Positions 17,828 to 43,680 of a stretch of 64,000 nucleotides of DNA are shown here, one piece after another. Each line of letters starts with the position of its first letter. Within the stretch, counting starts at the first letter, position 1. The stretch is from Rouxiella sp. S1S-2 (GTDB lineage Bacteria > Pseudomonadota > Gammaproteobacteria > Enterobacterales > Enterobacteriaceae), in assembly GCF_009208105.1 (NCBI RefSeq), contig NZ_WFKL01000002.1, forward strand, positions 62,001 through 126,000. The letters are read 5' to 3'. Under the pieces are notes generated by a model, which was not told the origin of the DNA, searched no databases, and saw only the letters and a program-made list of their open reading frames with translations. Both the position numbers and the translations under genes were made by a program.

Positions 17828-19597
17828 TCACGCCTGAACCAGTGGGCCGGGGTTATTGATATATTGCTCACGAATGGCTTTGGCAGACCAATAGGCTAGA
17901 CCGGAAACAAGCGCTGTAGGGTTGGCATACTGATTTTGTGGAAAAGCGCTGGCTCCCATGACGAATACGTTGTGCACGTCCCAGGTTTGAAGATACCGAT
18001 TTACCACTGAAGTTTTTGGATTGCTGCCCATAATCGCGCCACCGGCATTGTGGGTGTTCGAATAATTCGGTGAGCTGGCAAAATGACTGTCCATCTTGAG
18101 CATGCTGTCGGAGTAATAGTCTGGCTTTAGATGCTTAGCTATCCCCTCCATCTTGCCCTTCACATACTGCAGCATCCGCAGATCGTTCTGGACATAGTCA
18201 TAAGTTACGCGCAGCAATGGCATGCCGTACTTGTCTTTATAGGTTGGATCCAAGTCCAGATAGTTAGTCTGTGTACCCATATTGGAGGCTTCGAGCTTTA
18301 TCGCCATAGAATGGCCATAGCTCTCTTTCAGCCCTTTTTTCCAGCCGCGACCCCAGCTCGGTGAAGTATTTTTTACCGGAGCAGCCATCGGCGTTCCTGT
18401 CGGCTGAGAACTGTAGATTTTTGCTCCACCAATGAAGCCCAGCTCCGCCGTTTTGATATTGCCGGTACCAAAATCTGTAATAACAATGCCGGTTGGTCCA
18501 GCTGTAGCGAAAGGGTTAAATTCAAGGTTGTCAAAAAACAACGTGAAACCACCACCGTATTGATGGGTATAGTTACGCCCTACAACACCTTTTTCGGTTA
18601 TTGGATCGTAAGGTTCGCCAATCCCAGAGTTTAACAACAGGCGGACATTGTTCAGCCCGAAGCTGGCCAGAATAACGATTTCTGCAGGCTGAAAAACTTC
18701 ATTGCCGTGCTCGTCGACGTAAGTGACGCCAGTTGCGGTCTTGCCGTCTGCATGTTTTTCCACGCGGATCACATTGGCATGGGTCTTGTAGTCAAAGTTT
18801 TCAAACTGTTTTAAGCGGTCGAGGATAGCGGTTTGCGGCGAAGCCTTCGAGTAATTCAGACAGGAATAGAATTGGCAGAAGCCGCAGTAGTTGCAGGGCG
18901 CAATTTGCTGGCCATAAGGGTTTGTGTAGGCCTGTGAAACCGCCGCTGATGGGATCGAGTAAGGGTGATAGCCCATCTCCATCGCCGCTTTGCGGAACAT
19001 GCTGCTGTTTAGGCTATCAATAAGCGGCGGGTTAGGGAAGGCGTTGGAGCGCGGGCCTTCAAAGGGATCGCCACCCGGAATAATTTGGCCGCGGACATTT
19101 CCTGCTTGACCCGAAGAGCCGCAAACTTGGTCGAAAAAGTCCAGATGCGGTTCAAGCTCATCCCATGAAATAGGGAAGTCATACAATCTCAGTTCTTTGT
19201 CGAGCTGCGACTTTTCGAAATTTTCACGCGCGTAGGTCGCCAACTGTAGATCGGTTGGCGTAGGACGAGTGATCATCGCCGTCCAGTGCAGGCCCGCACC
19301 TCCGACACCATCGCCGAGGCGGAAGGAGCCAAGTTCACGCATCGGCAGCGCGACTTCATTGAGATTATGGCGAGTGGTGAAGGCCGCTACCGCCGGACTT
19401 TGCATAATCTTGTGGCGTTTGGTGTATGCCAGTTCATCCGCCGGAATAGGGTAAGCAAATTCGGCGCTTGTACGATCTGCACCGCGCTCAAGTGCACGAA
19501 CTTTTAATCCAGCTTTAGCCAGCTCAATGCTTTGGATAGCACCGGTCCAACCCAGACCAACGACGACCACGTCTACGGGTTCATTAGTGATTTTCAT
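17828..19597 (-). CDS. Gluconate 2-dehydrogenase flavoprotein subunit (GMC)
   Basis: A 589-residue GMC oxidoreductase. The ADP-binding motif is VVVVGLGWTGAIQSIELAKA near the N-terminus, with a further FAD motif around GDGVGGAGLHWTAM. The C-terminal catalytic region has HNAGGAIMG and FPQNQYANPTALVSGLAYWS. A Cys cluster (CNYCGFCQFYSC) lies mid-protein. It oxidises gluconate to 2-ketogluconate in the periplasm, exported by riding with the Tat subunit. Middle gene of the operon, 10 bp before the cytochrome gene. Confidence 0.92.
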   Translation of the reverse strand: MKITNEPVDVVVVGLGWTGAIQSIELAKAGLKVRALERGADRTSAEFAYPIPADELAYTKRHKIMQSPAVAAFTTRHNLNEVALPMRELGSFRLGDGVGGAGLHWTAMITRPTPTDLQLATYARENFEKSQLDKELRLYDFPISWDELEPHLDFFDQVCGSSGQAGNVRGQIIPGGDPFEGPRSNAFPNPPLIDSLNSSMFRKAAMEMGYHPYSIPSAAVSQAYTNPYGQQIAPCNYCGFCQFYSCLNYSKASPQTAILDRLKQFENFDYKTHANVIRVEKHADGKTATGVTYVDEHGNEVFQPAEIVILASFGLNNVRLLLNSGIGEPYDPITEKGVVGRNYTHQYGGGFTLFFDNLEFNPFATAGPTGIVITDFGTGNIKTAELGFIGGAKIYSSQPTGTPMAAPVKNTSPSWGRGWKKGLKESYGHSMAIKLEASNMGTQTNYLDLDPTYKDKYGMPLLRVTYDYVQNDLRMLQYVKGKMEGIAKHLKPDYYSDSMLKMDSHFASSPNYSNTHNAGGAIMGSNPKTSVVNRYLQTWDVHNVFVMGASAFPQNQYANPTALVSGLAYWSAKAIREQYINNPGPLVQA

Positions 19598-32157: not shown

Positions 32158-32310
32158 ATGAATGAGACTTCGAACTCTCTGAACCTGAATATCTCTGAAG
32201 ATATTTCCTCTGAACTTGTGGAGTTTTTTGAGCAACAAGCCGCGGTTGGCATTGGTGGTGGCTTAGGAGGCCATAACGCAAACAACGATCTGATTACCTA
32301 CGACGATTAA
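32158..32310 (+). CDS. RiPP precursor peptide
   Basis: A 50-residue peptide too short for usual gene finding. The leader-like part, MNETSNSLNLNISEDISSEL then VEFFEQQAA, is acidic and helical. The putative core is VGIGGGLGGHNANNDLITYD plus a final D. There is no Cys and only one Thr in the core, so azole or lanthionine chemistry is unlikely; Gly-rich backbone thioamidation and hydroxylation of His/Asn/Asp fit the enzymes that follow. A TTAATGAGGTTTAAATT leader precedes the ATG. The gene is immediately upstream of YcaO on the same strand, separated by a hairpin. The leader/core boundary is inferred. Confidence 0.8.
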   Translation: MNETSNSLNLNISEDISSELVEFFEQQAAVGIGGGLGGHNANNDLITYDD

Positions 32311-32329
32311 TTAATATTGAGCAAAATAT

Positions 32330-32360
32330 ACTGCTCTGTTGAATATTACAGAGCAGTTTT
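32330..32360 (+). terminator. Attenuator hairpin after precursor gene
   Basis: ACTGCTCTGT and ACAGAGCAGT form a perfect 10-bp stem with an 8-base loop followed by four T. It lies between precursor and YcaO. Such leaky terminators give much precursor mRNA and less enzyme mRNA in many bacteriocin operons. Confidence 0.85.
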
Positions 32361-32375
32361 AATACAGGAGATGGT

Positions 32376-33617
32376 ATGTACAAACTCAGTTCAAGTATGA
32401 GGATTCGTACTGCGGAAGAGTCTCTGGTGCTTGCGCGACAAGTAGCCAGAACAATGGGGGTGACAAGGGTAACAGATATCACCTGGCTCGATAAAATTGG
32501 TATGCCTGTGTATGCAGGAATTAGACCTTATGCTGCCCGTGGGTCGCTGAATGTACACAATGGAAAAGGGCTTCTGGCCAGTGAAGCAAAAATTGGCGCG
32601 TTCATGGAGTCTATAGAGTTCTCTCTGGCAGAAGGTAAAAAGCATCAACACCGCATCAAAAAATGCCAGCTCAAGGATGTTCAGGCTTCTCTACCGCCAG
32701 GCCTGCCATTCTCCGCCTTTGGTACGAAAATGGGTATAACTTTCTCGCAGGATGAAGAAGTTAACTGCGTTGAAGCCACCGATATCATCAGCGGATTAAC
32801 CGCATTAATTCCCGCAGAGCTCATTTTTCACCCAGTTAATCTCGAAGGTCAGCGCTCGTTTTATGGTGGTACAACAACAAATGGTCTTTGCTTAGGGAAT
32901 TCCCTGATAGAGGCCGTAGTTCACGGAGTATGCGAAGTCCTTGAGCGTGATGTTAAATCGTTTGACAGCCTTTATCATCACTCAGCTCTTGTGGATATTT
33001 CAACAGAGCCAGAAGTGGTTAGACTGCTGCGTCAGAAAGTCGAGGCTGCCGGTTTGCTGTTAGCGCTGCGTAAAACAACCAATATCTGGAAATTGCCATT
33101 CTACTCTGCCTTTGTTCTCGAGCCTGATATCGACAGTCCGATTTCTGTCGCGGATGGCTATGGTTTGCATCCCGATGCAGAAATTGCAGCAACCCGGGCG
33201 ATAACTGAGGCAGCACAGAGCCGGCTAACCCATATTCACGGCGGACGGGATGATATTGTTAAAAGAATTAACTTTTATCAGGCTAATTCGAAGTTAAATG
33301 AACAAGAAATTGTCAGTGACCTTCGAAGAACGATACTGAGCAGTGATCGTATAACTTCCTTCCTCGATGAAGAAGAGTTCTTTTCTCCACCGGATACTCT
33401 GGATGCTCTTTGGCTGGGTATTAAAACCCGAATGGCGGATCAGGACATACATCATTGTTTTGTATACGAACTCAGTCCACCAGGTTTTCCATTCAGTGTG
33501 GCGCGTGTGGTTGTGCCATATGCTGAGTTTATCGAAAGCGAGATGCAGAGAGTTGGACCACGCTTCTTGGAAGCTTTCCGTCGCAAAAAGCTACGTTTTG
33601 GGTGTAAAGATGCATAA
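32376..33617 (+). CDS. YcaO-domain peptide-modifying enzyme
   Basis: A 413-residue YcaO protein. The ATP-binding blocks are visible: SEAKIGAFMESIE (residues 69-81), NGLCLGNSLIEAVVHGVCEV (169-188) plus LERD, and AATRAITEAAQSR (271-283). YcaO enzymes phosphorylate a peptide amide oxygen and let a nucleophile attack. Partnered with TfuA and sulfide they make thioamides. The proline-rich C-terminus (PxPxP) of azoline-forming YcaOs is absent; this one ends RRKKLRFGCKDA. CAGGAG precedes the ATG. The next gene starts inside its last codons. Confidence 0.93.
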   Translation: MYKLSSSMRIRTAEESLVLARQVARTMGVTRVTDITWLDKIGMPVYAGIRPYAARGSLNVHNGKGLLASEAKIGAFMESIEFSLAEGKKHQHRIKKCQLKDVQASLPPGLPFSAFGTKMGITFSQDEEVNCVEATDIISGLTALIPAELIFHPVNLEGQRSFYGGTTTNGLCLGNSLIEAVVHGVCEVLERDVKSFDSLYHHSALVDISTEPEVVRLLRQKVEAAGLLLALRKTTNIWKLPFYSAFVLEPDIDSPISVADGYGLHPDAEIAATRAITEAAQSRLTHIHGGRDDIVKRINFYQANSKLNEQEIVSDLRRTILSSDRITSFLDEEEFFSPPDTLDALWLGIKTRMADQDIHHCFVYELSPPGFPFSVARVVVPYAEFIESEMQRVGPRFLEAFRRKKLRFGCKDA

Positions 33618-34299
33618 CGATACTCTATTCCTTTATATCGGCCCCACATCTTACAACCTAGAGCTGAGTGACTTTATCCCGCCTAGCACCCAGGTGTTAC
33701 CTCCGGTAAGACGTGGAGACATTCAACAGCTTATCGAACAGGAGTTACCGTCTATCATTGTTATCGTGGATGGAACCTATCACGACTTTCCCGCTGTGTC
33801 CCATGTCGAGATCAAAAATGCGCTGAGTCTCGGCTGGCAGGTCTGGGGACTGAGCTCAATGGGGGCCATCAGGGCCGCAGAGATGCACGCATTGGGAATG
33901 CAGGGCTATGGTTCTGTTTTTCAGCAGTTCGTTGAGAATGAAGATTTACCGGACGATTATGTTGCCTTGGTGCATAGCACAGAAACACCTTGGTTTCCGG
34001 TAAGCGAACCTCTTGTCCACTTGGAATCATTGCTAAATGATGCTGTCGATTTATCAATTCTAACGCCTGAAATATGCCGTCAGATAATGGAAGAACTGAC
34101 GAATATGTGGTTTGGCGATCGTACAGTCAGCTACCTGAAAAAAAGATCTCACGTTCTGATGAATGGTCAAAATCAGGCTCTTTGCGACCTGTTCAGCCAG
34201 ATGGATAAATATCGGCTAAAAAGTCGTGATGTAGTGAGTTTTTTCCGTGAACAGCCATTTCTGACCACCAGGAGTTCCCATGAATACCCCGTCAATTAG
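33610..34299 (+). CDS. tfuA: TfuA-like protein
   Basis: A 229-residue TfuA protein (name from the trifolitoxin locus). Conserved blocks: YIGPTSYNLEL (residues 9-19), LPPVRRGDIQQLIEQ (30-44), VIVDGTYHDFPAVSHVEIKN (51-70), WGLSSMGAIRAAEMHALGM (79-97) and DDYVALVHS (115-123). TfuA helps YcaO make thioamides, probably by delivering sulfur to the activated amide. The ATG overlaps the YcaO stop by 8 bp. A longer frame upstream lies inside YcaO and has no family similarity, so the 33610 start is preferred. Confidence 0.93.
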   Translation: MHNDTLFLYIGPTSYNLELSDFIPPSTQVLPPVRRGDIQQLIEQELPSIIVIVDGTYHDFPAVSHVEIKNALSLGWQVWGLSSMGAIRAAEMHALGMQGYGSVFQQFVENEDLPDDYVALVHSTETPWFPVSEPLVHLESLLNDAVDLSILTPEICRQIMEELTNMWFGDRTVSYLKKRSHVLMNGQNQALCDLFSQMDKYRLKSRDVVSFFREQPFLTTRSSHEYPVN

Positions 34300-35047
34300 C
34301 CTTATCGACAAAATATGTGGCGTGCCAATGATCTCTGGCTCCTTTAATGCACAAATTCTGATTACTTTAACAGCGCATTATCGTCATATTGCGCTGAATG
34401 CTTTTACGCGGATTGCTGATTACCTCAGTCCGGATGTAATTGAAGCCCCAGTGCAACACAGGAATGCTGCACTGGGAATTGAATATCCGGAATATGCCAT
34501 GCTTTCTGCGCAAGAAGAACTCGCGGTTAACGAAGCCATCAGAGCGATTATTACCATTGTCCCCGAATGGGAGATCTACTTCTCATTGCCGGTCAATTAC
34601 AGAAAACTCAGTGCGGGGAAAAATATGGTCAGTCTGACCAATCATCATATCCCGCAAGTGATTTTTTTAGGTGATAAAGCTTTCAAGAGTGAACACTGGC
34701 TAGCCGAAGTCCTGATCCATGAAAATGCACATGTCTGGTTGGGGATGCTTTGTGAAATGAACCATTTTTATGAGGCTACCCAGGAAAAATATTACACGTT
34801 GCCCTCCGGAACCAAAAACAAAGATGCCCGAGGGGTCATTTTTGCTTCGCATTTTGCCGCCTGCACGCTTGTGTATTACAGGAGAAAGAAAACCAACGGT
34901 TGCATTTCTTCAGAGGAAGCTGAACGACTTTTCTTTCTGGAGAAATACTACGCAGGATGCATGACTCAGTTAATGGAAATGAAGGAGTTGACCGAGACAG
35001 GCAAGGGCATCGTAAGGATGATGGGGGAGGAAATACATTATGGCTAA
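34280..35047 (+). CDS. HExxH-type putative peptide beta-hydroxylase
   Basis: A 255-residue protein with LIHENAHVWLGM (HExxH at 147-151) and a downstream His in GVIFASHFAACTLVYY (His191). This combination resembles the alpha-ketoglutarate/HExxH family of RiPP peptide beta-hydroxylases often found beside YcaO genes, rather than a classical metalloprotease. It could instead be a leader peptidase with the same metal motif. CAGGAGTTCCC before the ATG is a strong ribosome site, and the start overlaps the TfuA gene by 20 bp. Cytoplasmic. Confidence 0.7.
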   Translation: MNTPSISLIDKICGVPMISGSFNAQILITLTAHYRHIALNAFTRIADYLSPDVIEAPVQHRNAALGIEYPEYAMLSAQEELAVNEAIRAIITIVPEWEIYFSLPVNYRKLSAGKNMVSLTNHHIPQVIFLGDKAFKSEHWLAEVLIHENAHVWLGMLCEMNHFYEATQEKYYTLPSGTKNKDARGVIFASHFAACTLVYYRRKKTNGCISSEEAERLFFLEKYYAGCMTQLMEMKELTETGKGIVRMMGEEIHYG

Positions 35048-35303
35048 ATTAATTCTGCCGAGGCAGTTGATGCAGTACACCACGCTGACAGATGAATTTG
35101 TCTGTACGGCTCTGACGCTCGGGCAAGCTCTGGAGTCTCTTGTGCAAAGCTATCCCATGCTGAAAACCCAGATCTTTAACAACGACAGCACGGTAAGAAA
35201 TTTCGTAAACATCTTTGTTAATGACGAGATGATTGACGATTTAACAATGCCGGTGCAGGAAAACTCGCGAATTCAAATCATTGCCGCTGTAGCTGGAGGC
35301 TAA
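35040..35303 (+). CDS. ThiS/MoaD-like sulfur carrier protein
   Basis: An 87-residue beta-grasp protein ending QIIAAVAGG. The C-terminal Gly-Gly is the site of adenylation and thiocarboxylation by an E1-like enzyme. Family signs include TLGQALESLVQSYPML and FVNDEMIDDL. ATG overlaps the preceding stop by 8 bp, and the E1-like gene begins one base after its stop. It should carry sulfur for thioamidation by YcaO/TfuA. Confidence 0.88.
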   Translation: MAKLILPRQLMQYTTLTDEFVCTALTLGQALESLVQSYPMLKTQIFNNDSTVRNFVNIFVNDEMIDDLTMPVQENSRIQIIAAVAGG

Positions 35304-35304
35304 A

Positions 35305-36420
35305 ATGCAACACTCATTATCTACTGATGAAAAGGAATACTACTTAAGGCATTTCTCATTGCCCGGTTTTAACGAACAGACGCAGTTGAAGCTGAAAGCT
35401 GCCCGGGTCCTCGTTATTGGGAGCGGTGGTCTTGGCGCTCCTTGTCTACAGTACCTCGCCGGTGCCGGTATTGGCCATATTGGGATTGCCGATCACGATA
35501 CGATTAGCTGTAGTAACCTCCCACGTCAGGTGCTGTTCAGTCATAGAAATATCGGGGAGAGTAAAGCAGAAAAGGCTGGTGAACGTATCAGCGCGCTGAA
35601 CCCCTTTATTTCCATTGAGATTTTTCCGGAAAAAGTCAGCAGGGAGAATGCTAGAACTCTTGTCCGGCGGTTCGACATTGTTGTTGATTGCACGGATAAT
35701 TTTGATGCGAAATATCTGCTCAATGACATCTGTGGCGAACTAAAAACCCCTTTGGTCTATGCCTCTATTTTTCAGTACGAAGGACAGCTGGCGGTTTTCC
35801 ATTATCCTGGAAAGGATCAGGAAGTGCTTAGCTATCGAGATCTATTTCCCGAGCCACCGCAAGCCGAATTACGAGAAAACTGCAGTGATGCTGGCGTTCT
35901 TGGTGTATTACCCGGCGTTCTCGGTACTTTGCAGGCTGGAGAGGTCCTGAAACTGGTCACAGGCCTAGGTGAGGTTCTCAGTGACAGAGTCATGACATGG
36001 GATGCTCTTAATAACCGCACCTCCCAGCTGCGGTTAAAGCCTCGCCGGAATATCACGTCTGCGGTAAAAAACAATCCACCAGAGTCTTCTGAGAATATTG
36101 ATTTATCCCTTTTACTGGAGATGAAGATACGCCGGCCTGAAATGCTGTTATTGGATGTCAGGGAGTCAGCAGAGCGGGAATTTGTTTCTATAGGAGGTTT
36201 GCACATCCCTTTACGGGAGCTCCCGGATCATATTGATATGCTTCCTCGCGATCACCCCATCGTTTGTTACTGTAAATCTGGTAGCCGCAGCCTCCGGGCG
36301 GCATTGTTTCTCCAGGACCAGGGTTTCAGCGAGGCTTTTAGCCTGAAAGGCGGGGTAATGAGGCTCACACAGGCTGAAAAACTACGATTACAGAACATGG
36401 ATGCTTTACATGATGACTGA
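35305..36420 (+). CDS. E1-like ThiF/MoeB protein fused to rhodanese
   Basis: A 371-residue two-domain enzyme. Residues 10-225: adenylation domain with VIGSGGLGAPCLQYLAGAGI, the Arg/Asp motif DHDTISCSNLPRQVLF, DCTDNF and the Cys of ENCSDAGVLGVLPG (Cys193). Residues 275-365: rhodanese domain with CYCKSGSRS (Cys323). It should adenylate the Gly-Gly carrier and transfer persulfide sulfur to it, as MOCS3-type enzymes do. The zinc-binding CxxC pairs of MoeB are missing (SYRDLFPEP where Cys are usual). One base after the carrier gene; overlaps the transporter gene. Confidence 0.9.
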   Translation: MQHSLSTDEKEYYLRHFSLPGFNEQTQLKLKAARVLVIGSGGLGAPCLQYLAGAGIGHIGIADHDTISCSNLPRQVLFSHRNIGESKAEKAGERISALNPFISIEIFPEKVSRENARTLVRRFDIVVDCTDNFDAKYLLNDICGELKTPLVYASIFQYEGQLAVFHYPGKDQEVLSYRDLFPEPPQAELRENCSDAGVLGVLPGVLGTLQAGEVLKLVTGLGEVLSDRVMTWDALNNRTSQLRLKPRRNITSAVKNNPPESSENIDLSLLLEMKIRRPEMLLLDVRESAEREFVSIGGLHIPLRELPDHIDMLPRDHPIVCYCKSGSRSLRAALFLQDQGFSEAFSLKGGVMRLTQAEKLRLQNMDALHDD

Positions 36421-37699
36421 TCGCTTTCAAAGCCTCGGACCCGTTTTTTTTCTGCTGCAGACCGGTACCTCTCTCAGCCAGATTGCCGGGCATATCTTTC
36501 GCCTAGCTCTGGCATGGTGGTGTCTGCAGGAAACTAATTCTGCTGTTGCATTTTCATCACTGATTGCTTTTTCAGTGGCTGCGGAGGTATATCTCAAGCC
36601 ATTTCTTGCCTCACTTGGCGATCAGTTCAACAGGGTTAAATTCATATTCATCTGCCAGATAATCATTCTGGCGATAATGTCGCTGTTCTGCCTTGCCGGC
36701 GTTGGCGGGGAGTTTCATCTGGCTGCTGTAACCGTGGGTCTTATCAGTATGAGTGCGGTCATTGCAGTCAGAGAACCCACGATTATGGGGCTTATTCCGG
36801 ATCTGGTTGGAGAAGGATATGTATCCAAGGCAATTTCCCGTCGCTCAGCCATCAACTCGGTAATTATGCTGACGGGACCTGTAATTGCAGCAACACTGAT
36901 ATCTTTTGTCAGTATTGGGTTTGCACTGTTTACTGCAGCCCTTCTTCAGAGCTCGTCAGCACTGACATTTCTTCGACTTATGGGAAAAGGATCTCTGACC
37001 GCATCGGCAATCTGTGAGCATGAAAGCTGGTTCAGTAAAACGCGTGGCGGATTCATGGCTATGTATCGTGTAAAGCCAGAACTGCATATTGCTATTATTT
37101 CTGCCTTGATCAATTTCACTATGTTTCCCTTTTTTTCTGTCACGATTCCTTACTGGATCAGTACTGAACTTCATCTGAGCGCTTCTTATCTAGGGGCATA
37201 TGAATTTTCGTTTGCTCTCGGCCTGCTCACAGGCAGTCTGTACCTTAATACTCTGCTGCAGAGCTGCATTGGACGGTTTTGGAATGTTGTTACAGGGTTT
37301 CTACTCTTGGGTTGTAGTGTCATCGGTACTGTGCTGGCACCGACTATCTACCTTTCAATAGGACTCGCATTTTTTAGTGGTCTGGCATTTATTTTTATCA
37401 ATGTGAACCTGAGTACCCTACGTGCCACGGCTACTCCTGGGAACTACCGGACACGGATGAGTGCGATGGCTGCATTCCTCTCAAGCCTTGCAAATCCCTT
37501 CGGTGTCATTATTGCAGGCTGGTATATGCACTGGCTCGGAGTCATTCCTTTCGCAGTTCTGTCTGGTATAGCAGTGATCCTAGTGGCGCCCATACTGTTA
37601 TGGTCATGGCATCTTAAAAACGCCCTGTCGCTGGAAGAAGTGGAGATGCAGGGCTATTACGCAAAAACTTATCCAGACGCATTCACCGAGAGAGGTTGA
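36401..37699 (+). CDS. MFS exporter of the RiPP cluster
   Basis: A 432-residue membrane protein with about 12 helices, of the MFS_3/multidrug-exporter type (FRLALAWWCLQETNSAVAFS; LKPFLASLGDQFNRVKFIFI). It probably exports the mature peptide and gives self-protection. Several ATGs lie in frame (36401, 36410, 36413), so the start is uncertain. It overlaps the preceding gene by 20 bp and ends one base before the JmjC-type gene. Confidence 0.85.
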   Translation: MLYMMTDRFQSLGPVFFLLQTGTSLSQIAGHIFRLALAWWCLQETNSAVAFSSLIAFSVAAEVYLKPFLASLGDQFNRVKFIFICQIIILAIMSLFCLAGVGGEFHLAAVTVGLISMSAVIAVREPTIMGLIPDLVGEGYVSKAISRRSAINSVIMLTGPVIAATLISFVSIGFALFTAALLQSSSALTFLRLMGKGSLTASAICEHESWFSKTRGGFMAMYRVKPELHIAIISALINFTMFPFFSVTIPYWISTELHLSASYLGAYEFSFALGLLTGSLYLNTLLQSCIGRFWNVVTGFLLLGCSVIGTVLAPTIYLSIGLAFFSGLAFIFINVNLSTLRATATPGNYRTRMSAMAAFLSSLANPFGVIIAGWYMHWLGVIPFAVLSGIAVILVAPILLWSWHLKNALSLEEVEMQGYYAKTYPDAFTERG

Positions 37700-37700
37700 T

Positions 37701-38666
37701 ATGACTCGAACTCCAGCACCTCCGACCCTGTCGTCTCTTCTGGGGGCTGATAATTACAGGGATTTACTGTCTCATTATTCACAAAAGACTCTTTACCGAA
37801 CGCGGTTAGCCGAAACCGCTGCAGGAAGCATTTTGACCCTTGGCGATCTGCAGGACATTCTGAACACACGCCGATTGTCCTTCCCCCGTTGTCGCCTTGT
37901 CCAGGATGGAAAACCCTTAAATCCCGCAGGTTATCACGAGGAAGGGCCCACAGCTCTTGGTCAGCGCATCGTAAAAATTGCGCCCGAACGAGTTATGGAA
38001 GCGGTAAGTTCTGGTGTAACTCTGGCCATCGATTTCATCGAGGATTTATCTGCACAGGTTGGTCATCTTGCCGGTGCTATAGCCACGGAATTTCAGGAGC
38101 GAACAGGAGCTACTGCATTCTTCAGTACCGGAAGCAGCAAGGGATTTACTACTCACTGGGATAATAGTGAGACGCTGATTTTTCAGCTCAGCGGCAAAAA
38201 AAAATGGAATATATGGACACCCACGTTCAACTCTCCGGTCAGTGACAATAAACACGAATTGCCTCCCCCATTTTCGCCCCCCTCAGAAAGCCTGACACTG
38301 GAAGAAAATGACTTCCTGTACCTGCCCAGGGGCTACTGGCATGCCCCCGAGCCCTGCGGTAGCCATTCATTGCACATCTCATTTGCATTTCGGCCACGAA
38401 ACGGCATCGATTTCACCAAATATCTTCTCCAGAAATTGGGAGCAGAACTCAAATTTCGGGAGGATATTGATAAGTCTATTTCTGGTATGGCGCTTCAGGA
38501 ATACGTTGACACATTGTATGAAACGCTTGAAAAGATAATGACACCCGAAAACCTCATATCGTTTCTGACTGAAAGTAGTCATCGGAAATTTATATCCACT
38601 CCGTTTTGTATTGAACAAATGATTGATTGCGGATTAAAACATGAAACAACGCATACTGATAAATAA
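37701..38666 (+). CDS. JmjC-type 2-oxoglutarate oxygenase
   Basis: A 321-residue cupin oxygenase. The iron triad is visible as H152-W-D154 in GFTTHWDNSETLIFQLSGKK and His214 in DFLYLPRGYWHAPEP. The fold and the LPRGxxH motif resemble ribosomal oxygenases (YcfD/NO66), which hydroxylate Arg or His side chains. The His/Asn/Asp-rich precursor core makes side-chain hydroxylation a plausible job. AGAGAGGTTGAT lies before the ATG. Its 3' end overlaps the methyltransferase gene. Confidence 0.85.
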   Translation: MTRTPAPPTLSSLLGADNYRDLLSHYSQKTLYRTRLAETAAGSILTLGDLQDILNTRRLSFPRCRLVQDGKPLNPAGYHEEGPTALGQRIVKIAPERVMEAVSSGVTLAIDFIEDLSAQVGHLAGAIATEFQERTGATAFFSTGSSKGFTTHWDNSETLIFQLSGKKKWNIWTPTFNSPVSDNKHELPPPFSPPSESLTLEENDFLYLPRGYWHAPEPCGSHSLHISFAFRPRNGIDFTKYLLQKLGAELKFREDIDKSISGMALQEYVDTLYETLEKIMTPENLISFLTESSHRKFISTPFCIEQMIDCGLKHETTHTDK

Positions 38667-39441
38667 TGACAGTATAAGTGGTACTGTGCAGGCCTATAAT
38701 ACGATACACAGCAGTGTGAGTGATGGCACTCTGTTTCAGTCTTGTCTGAAACATGTCTTGGGAAAAGATTTTGTACAAAATGAGGGTCAGTTTTCTTTTG
38801 TTGGACATAATGCACTTAGATGGATAATTCAGAAGTTAAAGTTGAATAAAAATATTTGTATGGCCGCTGAAATAGGATGTGGTAGCGGTGCATTTTCAAA
38901 GTTATTATCTGACGCCTTAAACTGTTCTTTGACTGCAACAGATATAAGCCCCGTTGCAATTAACATGGCTAAAAATAATCATTTTGATAAAAAAATTAAT
39001 TTTGATGTGGCGGATTTCAACCATCTGCCTTACAACAGCAATAGCCTGGATATTCTTGTTGGTCTGGATTGCGTTCAGCACGCTAGTAACTATAATCAAC
39101 TCAGCAAAGAACTTTCAAGAGTTATGAAATCTGGTGGACGGATGGCCTTCACTAACTGGATGAAAACATATCCAGCTAGCAAGCTTGTAAAGGTCGATCC
39201 ATTATGCGTAGCATTGACTGAAAGCGGTTTTGTTATTGACGGTTTTTATAATTTTGATGAAGAATTAAAGAGACAGTTTAAATTTTATGATTTAATATAT
39301 TTAAATAGAGCATTATTCCAGAAGGTGATGGGGGAGTCTCTTTATACTTCACTTATGAATGAAGCGTGCCACCTTTATCAGTTTAATGGGACTGTTTCTC
39401 ACTATGCTTTTTCTGTTCATAAAATAATTTATCCCGTATAG
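38641..39441 (+). CDS. SAM-dependent methyltransferase
   Basis: A 266-residue class I methyltransferase with the SAM-binding motif AAEIGCGSGAFSKLL (residues 75-89), an acidic motif II (ATDISPVAIN) and motif IV LDILVGLDCVQHASN. Last gene of the cluster, overlapping the oxygenase gene by 26 bp, so it is translationally coupled. It could methylate the modified peptide (N-terminus, side-chain or carboxylate). The specific target is unknown. Beyond its stop begins a truncated Tn3 transposase. Confidence 0.88.
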   Translation: MKQRILINNDSISGTVQAYNTIHSSVSDGTLFQSCLKHVLGKDFVQNEGQFSFVGHNALRWIIQKLKLNKNICMAAEIGCGSGAFSKLLSDALNCSLTATDISPVAINMAKNNHFDKKINFDVADFNHLPYNSNSLDILVGLDCVQHASNYNQLSKELSRVMKSGGRMAFTNWMKTYPASKLVKVDPLCVALTESGFVIDGFYNFDEELKRQFKFYDLIYLNRALFQKVMGESLYTSLMNEACHLYQFNGTVSHYAFSVHKIIYPV

Positions 39442-39466
39442 GAATAAATTAAGTTTACTATTTTCG

Positions 39467-39749
39467 CCAGAAAACCGAAGCACCGGCATCAGCCAGGCGC
39501 GGCGAAAACTGGTATCCCAGCAGCCAGAAAAGGCCAAAGACAAGATCGCTGGCACCTGCTGTATCTGTCATAATTTCGGTTGGATTCAGCCCGGTCTCCT
39601 GTTCCAGAAGACCTTCCAGCACAAAGATAGAGTCCCTCAGCGTCCCCGGTATAACGATGCCATGAAAGCCGGAATACTGATCGGACACAAAGTTGTACTT
39701 TAAGTATCCCAGCTTTAGTTCCACACACTTTTTGAGATTTCCGGTTTCT
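39467..39749 (-). pseudogene. Tn3-family transposase fragment
   Basis: Encodes the end-region block NFVSDQYSGFHGIVIPGTLR, LLEQETGLNPTEIMTDTAGA and DLVFGLFWLLGYQFSPRLAD of Tn3-family TnpA. It is cut on the right by the IS3-family element and on the left at the RiPP cluster edge. So a Tn3-type transposon once lay here and may have carried or received the cluster. Confidence 0.9.
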
Positions 39750-39781
39750 TGACCTCCCCCCAATATCCGTACCAGGCTAAA

Positions 39782-40626
39782 TCAGAGATCCGGACCTTTT
39801 TGGTGATTTCGGACAAATTCTGCTGGAGTCAGGTTATTTAACGAGGAATGCGGGCGAAAATGATTATATTCCTGCCGCCAGTGTTCGATTTTCCCCTGCG
39901 CATCTTCCAGGGACAGGAACCAGTGTACGTTCAGACATTCATCCCTCAGGCTGCCATTAAATGACTCGATAAAAGCATTATCAGTAGGCTTTCCCGGGCG
40001 CGAGAAGTCCATCGTCACCTGGTTTTCATATGCCCACCGGTCCATCGATTTCGAGATAAACTCACTGCCGTTGTCTGTCTGTAGCCTTTGAGGAATACGT
40101 CCCAGAGACTGTTTTAATCGGTCCATGACAGCCACCACATCATCGCCACGCAACCCCTGGCCGACCTCGATCGCCAGACATTCCCGACTAAAATTATCCA
40201 CTATAGTTAGCGCCCTGATCCTACGCCCATAGAACAGATTATCAGCAACGAAATCCATGCTCCAGCACTGATCTACAGCGAGTACCTGAGGCTGTCCCTT
40301 CCTGTGTCTGGCGGTCACATGCCGCCGTGGACGCTTCGAACGCAGATTGAGCCCCTCAAGGCAGTAAATACGGTGTGTTTTTTACGGTTAACCAGCCAGC
40401 CTTCACGACGCAGAAGAATATGAATGCGCTCGTAGCCATAACGGATCCGTGTTTCAGCAATTTCCCGTATCCGATGAGTAATTGCCCGATCATCGCGATG
40501 GCTACGATAGTTGTATACAGTGCGACTTTGCATCATCAGCCTGCACCCTCTGCGTACGCCGATACGGTACGCCGCCAGCAGATATTCCACAGCATCGCGC
40601 TTCTGCAGCGGCCTCAGAGCTTTTTT
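39782..40626 (-). pseudogene. IS3-family OrfB transposase, frameshifted
   Basis: The DDE integrase core is complete in one frame from HVTARHRKG to the end: SMDFVADNLFYGRRIRALTI, TDNGSEFISKSMDRWA and FIESFNGSLRDECLN. The upstream HTH part (EYLLAAYRIGVRRGCRLM, IRYGYERIHILLRREGWLVN) lies in another frame. A single lost A in an A-run near 40380 explains this (RKKTHRIYCLEGLN becomes RKKHTVFTALRG). The normal A6G slippage motif for OrfAB fusion is at the orfA end near 40620. Confidence 0.85.
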
Positions 40627-40880
40627 CGGATGACATCCTGCAGCATCTCCTTGTCCAGACTCAGATCAGCCACCAGTCGCTTGAGGCGCTGATTCTCTTC
40701 CTCAAGCTGTCGAAGACGGCGTAATTCTGCGACGCCCATGCCCCCGAATCTCTTCTTCCAATTGTAAAATGTTGCCTCAGAAATCCCCATCTTTCTGCAG
40801 ACTTCCTCGACCCGAGTGCCTGTTTCAGCCTGTTTGAGTGCAAATGCAATCTGTTCTTCGGTATAACGCGTCTTTTTCAT
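40614..40880 (-). CDS. IS3-family OrfA
   Basis: An 88-residue intact OrfA: HTH domain (MKKTRYTEEQIAFALKQAET, GISEATFYNWKKRFGG) and a leucine-zipper segment (LRQLEEENQRLKRLVADLSL). It binds IS ends and normally joins OrfB by a -1 ribosomal shift. With OrfB broken, it could only act as a repressor. Confidence 0.9.
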   Translation of the reverse strand: MKKTRYTEEQIAFALKQAETGTRVEEVCRKMGISEATFYNWKKRFGGMGVAELRRLRQLEEENQRLKRLVADLSLDKEMLQDVIRKKL

Positions 40881-42317: not shown

Positions 42318-42944
42318 ATGACAGCACATGCTCAACGTACTGGCACCAAACATGCTTCGAGTCTAAATACGATCCTTCATGGTCGTATTGAGAACTTAAT
42401 CAGCAAAGTAGTAGAAGAAATGGGGACTGAGTTTTCATTAGGTACTGCTTTGCAGCTTGATGATTCTGAGCTTATGCATCAAGTCTTCCTGCACTATTTA
42501 GCAGGTTCTTCTCGCGCAGATAAGCGTGAAAGAATGAAAATACAACGTCGTGCCGAAGGTGCTTTAGCATTTTATCAAATGCTTGATCGAATGGGCGGAA
42601 CACTAAGGGCTAGTGAGGTCGCTGATTTATTGGGTGTTTCAAGGCAGACCGTTAATAATTATGTCAAGTCAGGTAAGCTTTTGGCCGTGAAACCTGCGAA
42701 AGAAAATCTATTCCCGGTATTTCAGTTTAATGGGAATCAGGTACTCCCTCACTTTGAGGATATACTTAATGCATTACCTGAAAATCTTAGTCCTGTAACA
42801 AAGACCTCATTCTTTACCTCAATGGCTTTTTTTGAAGATAGTTCAAAGTCTGTTATCGAGCTTCTTAGAGAGGGGCTGGCTAATGAAAGGCAATTGAGCA
42901 ATATTCTTTCCCAGGCAAAATCGTTGGGTAAACAGGCCGGTTAA
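42318..42944 (+). CDS. HTH antitoxin-like protein paired with second RES gene
   Basis: A 208-residue protein. Residues 95-125 have a helix-turn-helix (ASEVADLLGVSRQTVNNYVK). Next come KENLFPVFQF and a C-terminal region (SVIELLREGLANERQLSNIL) comparable to the product of 9649. The proposed role is antitoxin and autoregulator. An unusually strong GGGGGGG tract precedes the ATG. The RES gene at 42973 is convergent, with only a terminator between. Confidence 0.7.
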   Translation: MTAHAQRTGTKHASSLNTILHGRIENLISKVVEEMGTEFSLGTALQLDDSELMHQVFLHYLAGSSRADKRERMKIQRRAEGALAFYQMLDRMGGTLRASEVADLLGVSRQTVNNYVKSGKLLAVKPAKENLFPVFQFNGNQVLPHFEDILNALPENLSPVTKTSFFTSMAFFEDSSKSVIELLREGLANERQLSNILSQAKSLGKQAG

Positions 42945-42971
42945 GGTGGCAGTAAAAGCTGCCACCTTTTT
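42945..42971 (+). terminator. Terminator between second HTH/RES pair
   Basis: GGTGGCAG pairs with CTGCCACC around a 6-base loop, with TTTTT directly after. It ends the plus-strand HTH transcript. Confidence 0.9.
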
Positions 42972-42972
42972 A

Positions 42973-43680
42973 TCAGTCAGGGTTGTTTGGTGTAATCTTA
43001 AAATCGAGTGTTTCTGTAATTATTTCAACTCCTTCAATATCGTTGTATCCCCACCCAGCAGGAAAACAAGCAGTATCACGGTCCTTGAATTTACTTACAG
43101 GCACCATTTCAATTGTGGCAAGAGGATTATCAGCCCCATCGTTCCACCACCAAGCCGTACATGTTCCAACGGGAAGATGTCTTGAACGGTAAGTCACACC
43201 ATCAAAACCTTTTTTCCCATTAGAAGCCCAATTCACAATCTGACGCGTTGTGGTTTGGTTATCACCTGTAACTTTATCTACTGTAATATGTAATAAAGGT
43301 AACAGGCGGTCCATGTCTACGGTCTTTGTTTCTCGGGTAGTTTCCAGTGTGCAAATATTTGCCCGTGATAGCTCATCTTCCCCAATACTGAATTTATTTG
43401 GTGTCTTTTGGTATTGACGCCCATAAGATTCAGCAATTGCAGTGACTGAATGATCTGCAGTGTAGCAAACACCGGTCCGACCTGAAGCATCATTGTAGCG
43501 CCCCATATCATCCTCTTCCCGAGGTTTACCATAATGCACCCCTGACTTTTGTGACTCGCGTTGCCAACGCGATTGTTTAGTCATCGGGCCACGGATGCAT
43601 ACAGGAATACGACCTTTGCCATGAAGAGCGTTTAGCTGTTCATCCAAATGCCCTCCTTCTTCATTGTTGTAGTAAGCCAC
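42973..43680 (-). CDS. RES-domain toxin, larger variant
   Basis: A 235-residue protein. RES-like signs: GRYNDASGRTGVCYTADHSV (residues 60-79) with Arg and Tyr, then TAIAESYGR with the Glu, and QIVNWASNGKKGFDGVTYRS in the C-terminal half. Probably an NAD+-consuming growth-arrest toxin, neutralised by the convergent HTH protein. The N-terminal 55 residues (Lys/Arg-rich, VCIRGPMTKQSRWQRESQKS) are extra relative to the 10330 toxin. Confidence 0.7.
   Translation of the reverse strand: MAYYNNEEGGHLDEQLNALHGKGRIPVCIRGPMTKQSRWQRESQKSGVHYGKPREEDDMGRYNDASGRTGVCYTADHSVTAIAESYGRQYQKTPNKFSIGEDELSRANICTLETTRETKTVDMDRLLPLLHITVDKVTGDNQTTTRQIVNWASNGKKGFDGVTYRSRHLPVGTCTAWWWNDGADNPLATIEMVPVSKFKDRDTACFPAGWGYNDIEGVEIITETLDFKITPNNPD

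Follow-up and report, generated by a model that had tools for sequence, protein, structure and literature searches.

A recurrent YcaO-TfuA gene cluster of Rouxiella sp. S1S-2 with a conserved precursor motif, a predicted sulfur relay and two hydroxylase-type enzymes

What would nine genes make together, when they lie head to tail on one strand and encode a short peptide, a YcaO, a TfuA, a sulfur carrier with its E1-like partner, two hydroxylase-type enzymes, a transporter and a methyltransferase? The question is raised by a locus of Rouxiella sp. S1S-2 within a stretch of 64,000 nucleotides (the window) that runs from 62001 to 126000 on contig NZ_WFKL01000002.1 (184,129 bases), one of two contigs of a 5.36 Mb genome and probably a plasmid. 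According to the open reading frame (ORF) list of the window, the nine genes span 32158-39441, all on the + strand like every cluster feature described below. They are spaced by 65 bp after the precursor gene and then by -8, -20, -8, +1, -20, +1 and -26 bp (negative values are overlaps), which bears out the overlapping or closely spaced, unidirectional genes that an earlier sequence-only reading of this DNA had described. The answer that we propose, with a probability of roughly two in three, is that the H-x-[A/S]-N-N end of the small peptide would be thioamidated at a backbone amide and hydroxylated at its His and Asn, and that the peptide would be exported. Gene content, gene order, catalytic motifs, motif conservation and a hairpin form the sequence basis of this reading, joined by a modelled fold for the HExxH protein.

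The gene set was found in eight lineages: Rouxiella, Kosakonia (K. pseudosacchari, L004), Pantoea (plasmid NZ_CP054911.1 of P. ananatis, L021), Symbiopectobacterium (L005/L043), Prodigiosinella (L042), Paraburkholderia (plasmid NZ_CP041744.1 of P. megapolitana, L022) and two genomes from a single genus (loci L046 and L048), which we infer to be Pseudomonas-like. The order precursor-YcaO-TfuA-HExxH-ThiS-E1/rhodanese-MFS-JmjC is identical in all eight. An order of eight genes that recurs in further families of bacteria, and in Burkholderiales as well, is more than chance, and so is the codon pattern of the precursor given below. The earlier observation as a whole is confirmed. Within Rouxiella, the cluster proteins are 98.8-100% identical to those of R. 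silvae contig NZ_MRWD01000106.1 (L003, the same DNA as L044). Pairwise identities run parallel for seven of the genes (Spearman 0.74-0.95 over the 21 pairs of seven lineages, the decayed Symbiopectobacterium being omitted), as expected if the set had been inherited jointly. The HExxH protein of the Prodigiosinella locus and P0016 of P. aquatilis have the same sequence. The Symbiopectobacterium cluster is decayed, with its ycaO, tfuA, MFS and JmjC matches split between frames; the C-terminal stretch of its precursor, SHNSNNDLITYDD, is intact despite this decay.

The precursor gene is located at 32158-32310 and encodes a 50 aa peptide, MNETSNSLNLNISEDISSELVEFFEQQAAVGIGGGLGGHNANNDLITYDD, with no family match in Pfam or NCBIfam. 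It lacks Cys and, past residue 18, holds a single Thr and no Ser. The alignment covers nine distinct precursors, namely those of the window, P0002, Kosakonia, Pantoea, Symbiopectobacterium, Prodigiosinella, Paraburkholderia, L046 and L048, while P0001, which differs from the window by one residue, and the identical R. silvae copy were omitted. The predicted core is the conserved C-terminal stretch HNANNDLITYDD (32272-32307), with the motif H-x-[A/S]-N-N at residues 39-43 present in 9/9. The [A/S] position is Ala in the window, P0002, Kosakonia, Pantoea and Paraburkholderia, and Ser in the other four. Directly after the motif, [DQ]-L-I-T-Y-[DE] follows in the Enterobacterales, N-L-V-N-F in Paraburkholderia, and N-I-S-A-D or A-I-A-A-D in the Pseudomonas-like precursors. 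The L046 and L048 precursors were chosen by the motif pattern itself from 158 and 198 small ORFs and thus count as evidence of position only; the pattern occurs in one ORF per 19.9-kb locus, immediately before ycaO. At the codon level, the Rouxiella and Kosakonia precursors share 7 identical and 6 synonymous codons with no non-synonymous change over codons 38-50, against 11, 14 and 12 over codons 1-37. The comparison with Pantoea gave 6 identical, 6 synonymous and 1 changed codon, against 14, 9 and 14. Selection on the C-terminal part is visible in these codon counts. The Gly-rich stretch preceding the motif was also considered as a mimic of uL16 and was rejected, because it is not conserved among the precursors.

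Between the precursor stop and ycaO lies a strong hairpin at 32330-32357 (z = -3.6), a predicted attenuator. The corresponding segment folds in 8/8 loci (z from -3.1 to -7.1, with at most 1 of 200 shuffles equally good), and the sequences differ in the distant loci. Since the hairpins of all eight loci align poorly, covariation was read from the four Enterobacterales folded together, in which two pairs of the main stem carry double-sided changes with pairing kept. The hairpin is likely to act as a partial terminator or stabiliser that leaves precursor mRNA in excess, although an attenuator role is weakly supported.

RoxA is a JmjC_2 enzyme. The target of the cluster's enzymes could be a protein of the cell, in the way that ribosomal protein uL16 is the target of chromosomal YcaO and RoxA, the small ORF being incidental; in E. 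coli, YcaO and an oxygenase modify neighbouring residues of uL16 (PMC13063428; here and below, papers are cited for their main texts). We regard this as very improbable, given that a motif-bearing small ORF stands just 5' of ycaO in 8/8 lineages with the hairpin between them, and that the other contig of S1S-2 encodes a further YcaO with a better score. A peptide encoded by the cluster itself is preferred as the substrate.

Concerning the enzymes that would act on this peptide, ATP-dependent activation of the backbone amide is the predicted role of YcaO (32376-33617; PF02624, 161 bits, over the Pfam cut-off). Its best NCBIfam match is the McrA-thioamidation YcaO, TIGR03266, against 68.4 bits for SagD (cut-off 219, not reached) and 32 bits for YcaO_for_S12, and its closest solved relative is MJ1094. 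TfuA (33610-34299, starting at the ATG at 33610, a longer ORF from 33367 lying within ycaO) is a predicted hydrolase of thiocarboxylated ThiS, scores 109 bits with PF07812, over the Pfam cut-off, and matches the solved TfuA 6xp8. The two genes are adjacent, with an 8 bp overlap, and preceded by a short precursor with a conserved core, as in a YcaO-TfuA cluster for a ribosomally synthesized and post-translationally modified peptide (RiPP). A Ser-Lys pair of TfuA has been described to hydrolyse ThiS-COSH, the sulfur then passing to YcaO (PMC13185837). The Ser of S-M-G-A and the Lys of R-x-K, invariant in 8/8 aligned rows, are candidates for this pair.

YcaO enzymes perform more than one chemistry (PMC13063428), and an azoline or amidine could be formed instead of a thioamide, at Thr47 or at the Ser of H-x-S-N-N in some relatives, with ThiS and E1 as partners or serving another sulfur step. 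We consider this improbable: a conserved TfuA lies next to YcaO, the score with the SagD family falls far short of that with the thioamide family, and no dehydrogenase family was matched among the nine genes in Pfam or NCBIfam. Moreover, five of the nine precursors have Ala in place of Ser, and therefore the motif needs no beta-nucleophile. The earlier claim of a thioamide from YcaO and TfuA is supported as an inference through TIGR03266, MJ1094 and 6xp8.

The sulfur for thioamidation would come from the next pair of genes that concern us. A ThiS-type carrier is encoded at 35040-35303 (PF02597, 40.5 bits, over the Pfam cut-off) and an E1-like adenylyltransferase fused to a rhodanese, predicted to make ThiS-COSH, at 35305-36420 (PF00899, ThiF, 240 bits; PF00581, Rhodanese, 41 bits; both over the Pfam cut-offs). 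The Gly-Gly end of the carrier is present in 8/8 aligned rows, one of them from a second Paraburkholderia cluster, and C-[KQ]-S-G-x-R-S, the loop of the rhodanese, is unbroken in 7/7, so the carrier end and the rhodanese Cys expected of such a relay are both in place in the sequence. As a separate observation, the E1 domain reads YRDLFPEPP in the window and CYECVFPVAP in the second Paraburkholderia E1; C-x-x-C, which we take to be a zinc knuckle in the latter, is absent in 7/7 family E1 rows. Outside sulfide-rich settings, thioamide-forming YcaOs tend toward a thiocarboxylated ThiS homologue and a TfuA hydrolase (PMC13063428), and moaD, moeB, thiF and rhodanese genes have been noted near ycaO-tfuA (PMC5589413). 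Among 13 distant YcaO-TfuA loci, an E1-like gene occurs in 6 and a detectable ThiS in 4, and tblastn found relatives of the HExxH or JmjC proteins in 0/13 (two of the stretches being short, 10.0 and 5.4 kb). The dedicated ThiS/ThiF-rhodanese supply claimed earlier therefore stands with respect to its motifs, and is no novelty, being an already known feed of TfuA systems (PMC13063428, PMC13185837, PMC5589413).

The two hydroxylases of the sequence-only reading were borne out as two hydroxylase-type enzymes, one by its modelled fold and one by its sequence. The first (34280-35047) is a predicted alpha-ketoglutarate/iron peptide hydroxylase with no Pfam match. Its model has a ChlB-type fold with the HExxH, and 14/14 members of its alignment, the window protein included, match TIGR04267 at E <= 0.01. 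A metalloprotease was rejected as the first choice on the basis of the fold search. The second (37701-38666; PF08007, 72.2 bits, cut-off 22) is a JmjC_2 oxygenase and predicted peptide hydroxylase, His being the favoured target. NO66, YxbC, 1vrb and MINA are its solved relatives, and the iron site H-x-D...H is kept in 7/7 lineages. Conceivably, the HExxH protein instead releases the core, either as a leader peptidase or by oxidative cutting of the backbone, which would leave JmjC as the sole hydroxylase. The other eight genes contain no protease family in Pfam or NCBIfam, and PflC and PosC, HEXXH enzymes that hydroxylate Gln, also cleave the backbone (PMC12636437). With the fold search on the other side, we hold such a role to be unlikely and retain two hydroxylases in the preferred reading.

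Two further genes complete the cluster. The MFS protein at 36401-37699 (PF07690, MFS_1, 63 bits, over the Pfam cut-off; TIGR00900, 132 bits, below the cut-off) is a predicted exporter that would also confer self-protection. The S-adenosylmethionine methyltransferase at 38641-39441 (PF08241, Methyltransf_11, 69 bits, over the Pfam cut-off) is an optional tailoring gene. Relatives of the window protein, the only kind of methyltransferase that the search covers, were detected at E <= 1 in the Rouxiella (L003) and Kosakonia loci alone among nine loci searched, or 2/8 lineages. Its G+C content is 0.357 against 0.438-0.484 in the other eight genes. The low G+C and the narrow distribution suggest that it is a later addition, so that the methyltransferase tailoring proposed earlier has a real gene behind it and is not part of the core. 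Overall, the earlier interpretation is partly supported: the thioamide-type YcaO and TfuA, the relay motifs and the two hydroxylase-type enzymes stand, with the corrections that the relay is no novelty and that the methyltransferase does not belong to the core.

Taken together, the pathway would begin with the rhodanese picking up sulfur as a persulfide, after which the E1 domain would adenylate and then thiocarboxylate the Gly-Gly end of ThiS, and TfuA would free the sulfur at YcaO. YcaO would phosphorylate a backbone amide of the core and exchange O for S, most likely at Asn42 or Asn43, a site that is a guess from likeness to the std cluster discussed below. JmjC would hydroxylate His39, a guess from likeness to NO66 and MINA, and the HExxH enzyme one Asn of the N-N pair. 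Capping of the product by the methyltransferase, in the lineages that have it, and export by the MFS protein would follow. The leader would be removed by a host protease or by the HExxH protein itself, as no peptidase is evident in the cluster.

Several points weigh against this reading. Both YcaO and TfuA stay under the curated cut-offs of the McrA-type models (195 bits against 365 for TIGR03266, and 135 against 235 for NF033432), and the HExxH protein reaches 38.5 bits with TIGR04267, 1.5 bits under the cut-off of 40. The role of the HExxH protein may also differ from hydroxylation, since its relatives also cut backbones. In the two Pseudomonas-like loci the LITYDD tail is not kept, the motif itself being kept, and their JmjC proteins are only 18-21% identical to the others. 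No leader peptidase or peptide-binding (RRE) domain was identified among the cluster proteins, the JmjC model (pLDDT 44.7, from 3 rows) being too poor for a fold or RRE search. A promoter scan gave 3 sites against 3.2 expected, none above chance. The terminator scan gave 3 sites against 0.4 expected and, to the detriment of an attenuator role, scored the precursor-ycaO hairpin on the - strand only, because its + side has just a short run of T.

The cluster family is rare. A profile search with the HExxH protein found it in 4 of 392 genomes at the family level, 2 of 398 at the phylum level and 2 of 199 within the genus of G1379, the centre genome being counted in each, and in 2 of the 5 listed genomes of the Rouxiella genus. 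At least 26 HExxH proteins were found at E <= 1e-10 in a large protein set of which the best 7,997 candidates were scored, one being a 139-aa piece, and two plasmid records carry the protein. With YcaO as a query (E <= 1e-20), matches came from 11 of 369 genomes at class level and 5 of 394 at order level, with only 29-37% identity when the genome of S1S-2 is set aside. One genome of the class has two divergently oriented YcaO genes, one with TfuA (L033, 6674-9695).

Beyond its 3' end, the window cluster is followed by a Tn3 transposase fragment (39461-39763) and then by an IS3-like element with two transposase genes (39782-40880), the IS3 label coming from layout and DNA matches. A near-DNA search of plasmids and E. 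coli genomes returned, among the matches listed, solely the transposon DNA behind the cluster. Further along, a gene with a weak helix-turn-helix match (+) adjoins a RES-domain protein gene (-) at 42318-43680, possibly a RES-type toxin-antitoxin locus. Two Rfam families, the sok antitoxin RNA and the cspA thermoregulator, are matched on the - strand at 157-322 and 1270-1697. Elsewhere, the Prodigiosinella copy is flanked by transposase genes that look by eye to be of the IS21 and IS66 types, and two acyl-CoA-ligase-like genes, also recognised by eye, stand beside L046, which together with the large size of its genus points to Pseudomonas. In Paraburkholderia, a second and different cluster adjoins the first (L022, 18628-25167), with a small ORF (18628-18756) without H-x-x-N-N, MFS, YcaO, TfuA, ThiS, an E1 with an N-terminal rhodanese, and a JmjC-like protein cut off by the end of the stretch, in which no HExxH match was seen. 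A TonB receptor lies near L022 and none near the Pantoea locus; a metallophore idea was not used as evidence.

How new is such a cluster? Characterised YcaO-TfuA peptides comprise four classes plus std (PMC13174530), and predicted non-redundant clusters number 2,326, with Proteobacteria contributing 70% (PMC8120280). The enzyme combination and the H-x-[A/S]-N-N motif were not found among the papers listed in the literature searches or in the main-text passages of PMC8120280 that were searched; its supplementary listings could hold them. The earlier description of the cluster as undescribed holds within that scope. Additionally, YcaO or thioamide was not found in the main text of a Pantoea antibiotic survey (PMC11350110), nor JmjC in those of PMC6511847 and PMC13185837, nor HEXXH in that of PMC13185837. 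Because the gene set and the motif recur in other Proteobacteria, the cluster is likely to make an undescribed class of natural product. More tentatively, and with more doubt than confidence, it may represent the founding gene set of a RiPP class of its own, partly plasmid-borne and spread over several families of Proteobacteria, in which H-x-[A/S]-N-N is a compact warhead with an Asn backbone thioamide flanked by beta-hydroxy-His and beta-hydroxy-Asn. If so, its soft S, imidazole N and hydroxyls would together act as a ligand for a metal or for a site on a ribosome or an enzyme, and this would account for these residues alone being fixed from the Pseudomonas-like genomes to Rouxiella. Under the preferred reading, thioamide formation and hydroxylation by two unlike iron/alpha-ketoglutarate enzymes would take place within the same few residues. 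The operon holds a small defined substrate motif and every sulfur-supply protein, so that E. coli becomes a host in which thioamidation can be tested with its native sulfur donor.

Linear azol(in)e peptides have a Cys/Ser/Thr-rich core for cyclodehydration, unlike the window precursor, with no Cys and one Thr past residue 18, and its YcaO is not of the SagD type. The thioamitides (thioviridamide-like) are defined by a decarboxylase and lanthionine-type enzymes beside YcaO-TfuA, neither of which was matched among the nine genes in Pfam or NCBIfam. Closer is the std cluster of Streptomyces thermodiastaticus, whose YcaO-TfuA pair introduces a thioamide at a backbone Asn within a short C-terminal motif and which also has an MFS permease; its hydroxylation, however, is performed by an MNIO on homocitrulline, and ThiS/E1, HExxH and JmjC are absent from its gene list in the main text (PMC13174530). 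The modification of uL16 in E. coli likewise places YcaO thioamidation beside hydroxylation by an oxygenase, but its substrate is a folded ribosomal protein and TfuA is lacking there, whereas here the cluster has its own peptide (PMC13063428). In the biphenomycin bip cluster, JmjC and alpha-ketoglutarate HExxH hydroxylases meet in a single peptide pathway, together with an MNIO, a B12-radical SAM enzyme and biaryl macrocycles, and YcaO-TfuA is absent from the bip gene list as given there (PMC12707348). The Pseudomonas pfl/pos clusters share a stand-alone alpha-ketoglutarate HEXXH enzyme, theirs acting on a Gln amide side chain, yet its partner is an MNIO-nitroreductase and the precursor ends in ARMD (PMC12636437). 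Finally, McrA thioamidation pairs YcaO-TfuA with sulfur-carrier and E1 genes nearby (moaD/moeB/thiF) in several archaea, although there a glycine within a large archaeal enzyme is modified (PMC5589413). Each part of the Rouxiella cluster has a known relative, and the novelty would lie in their combination and in the motif.

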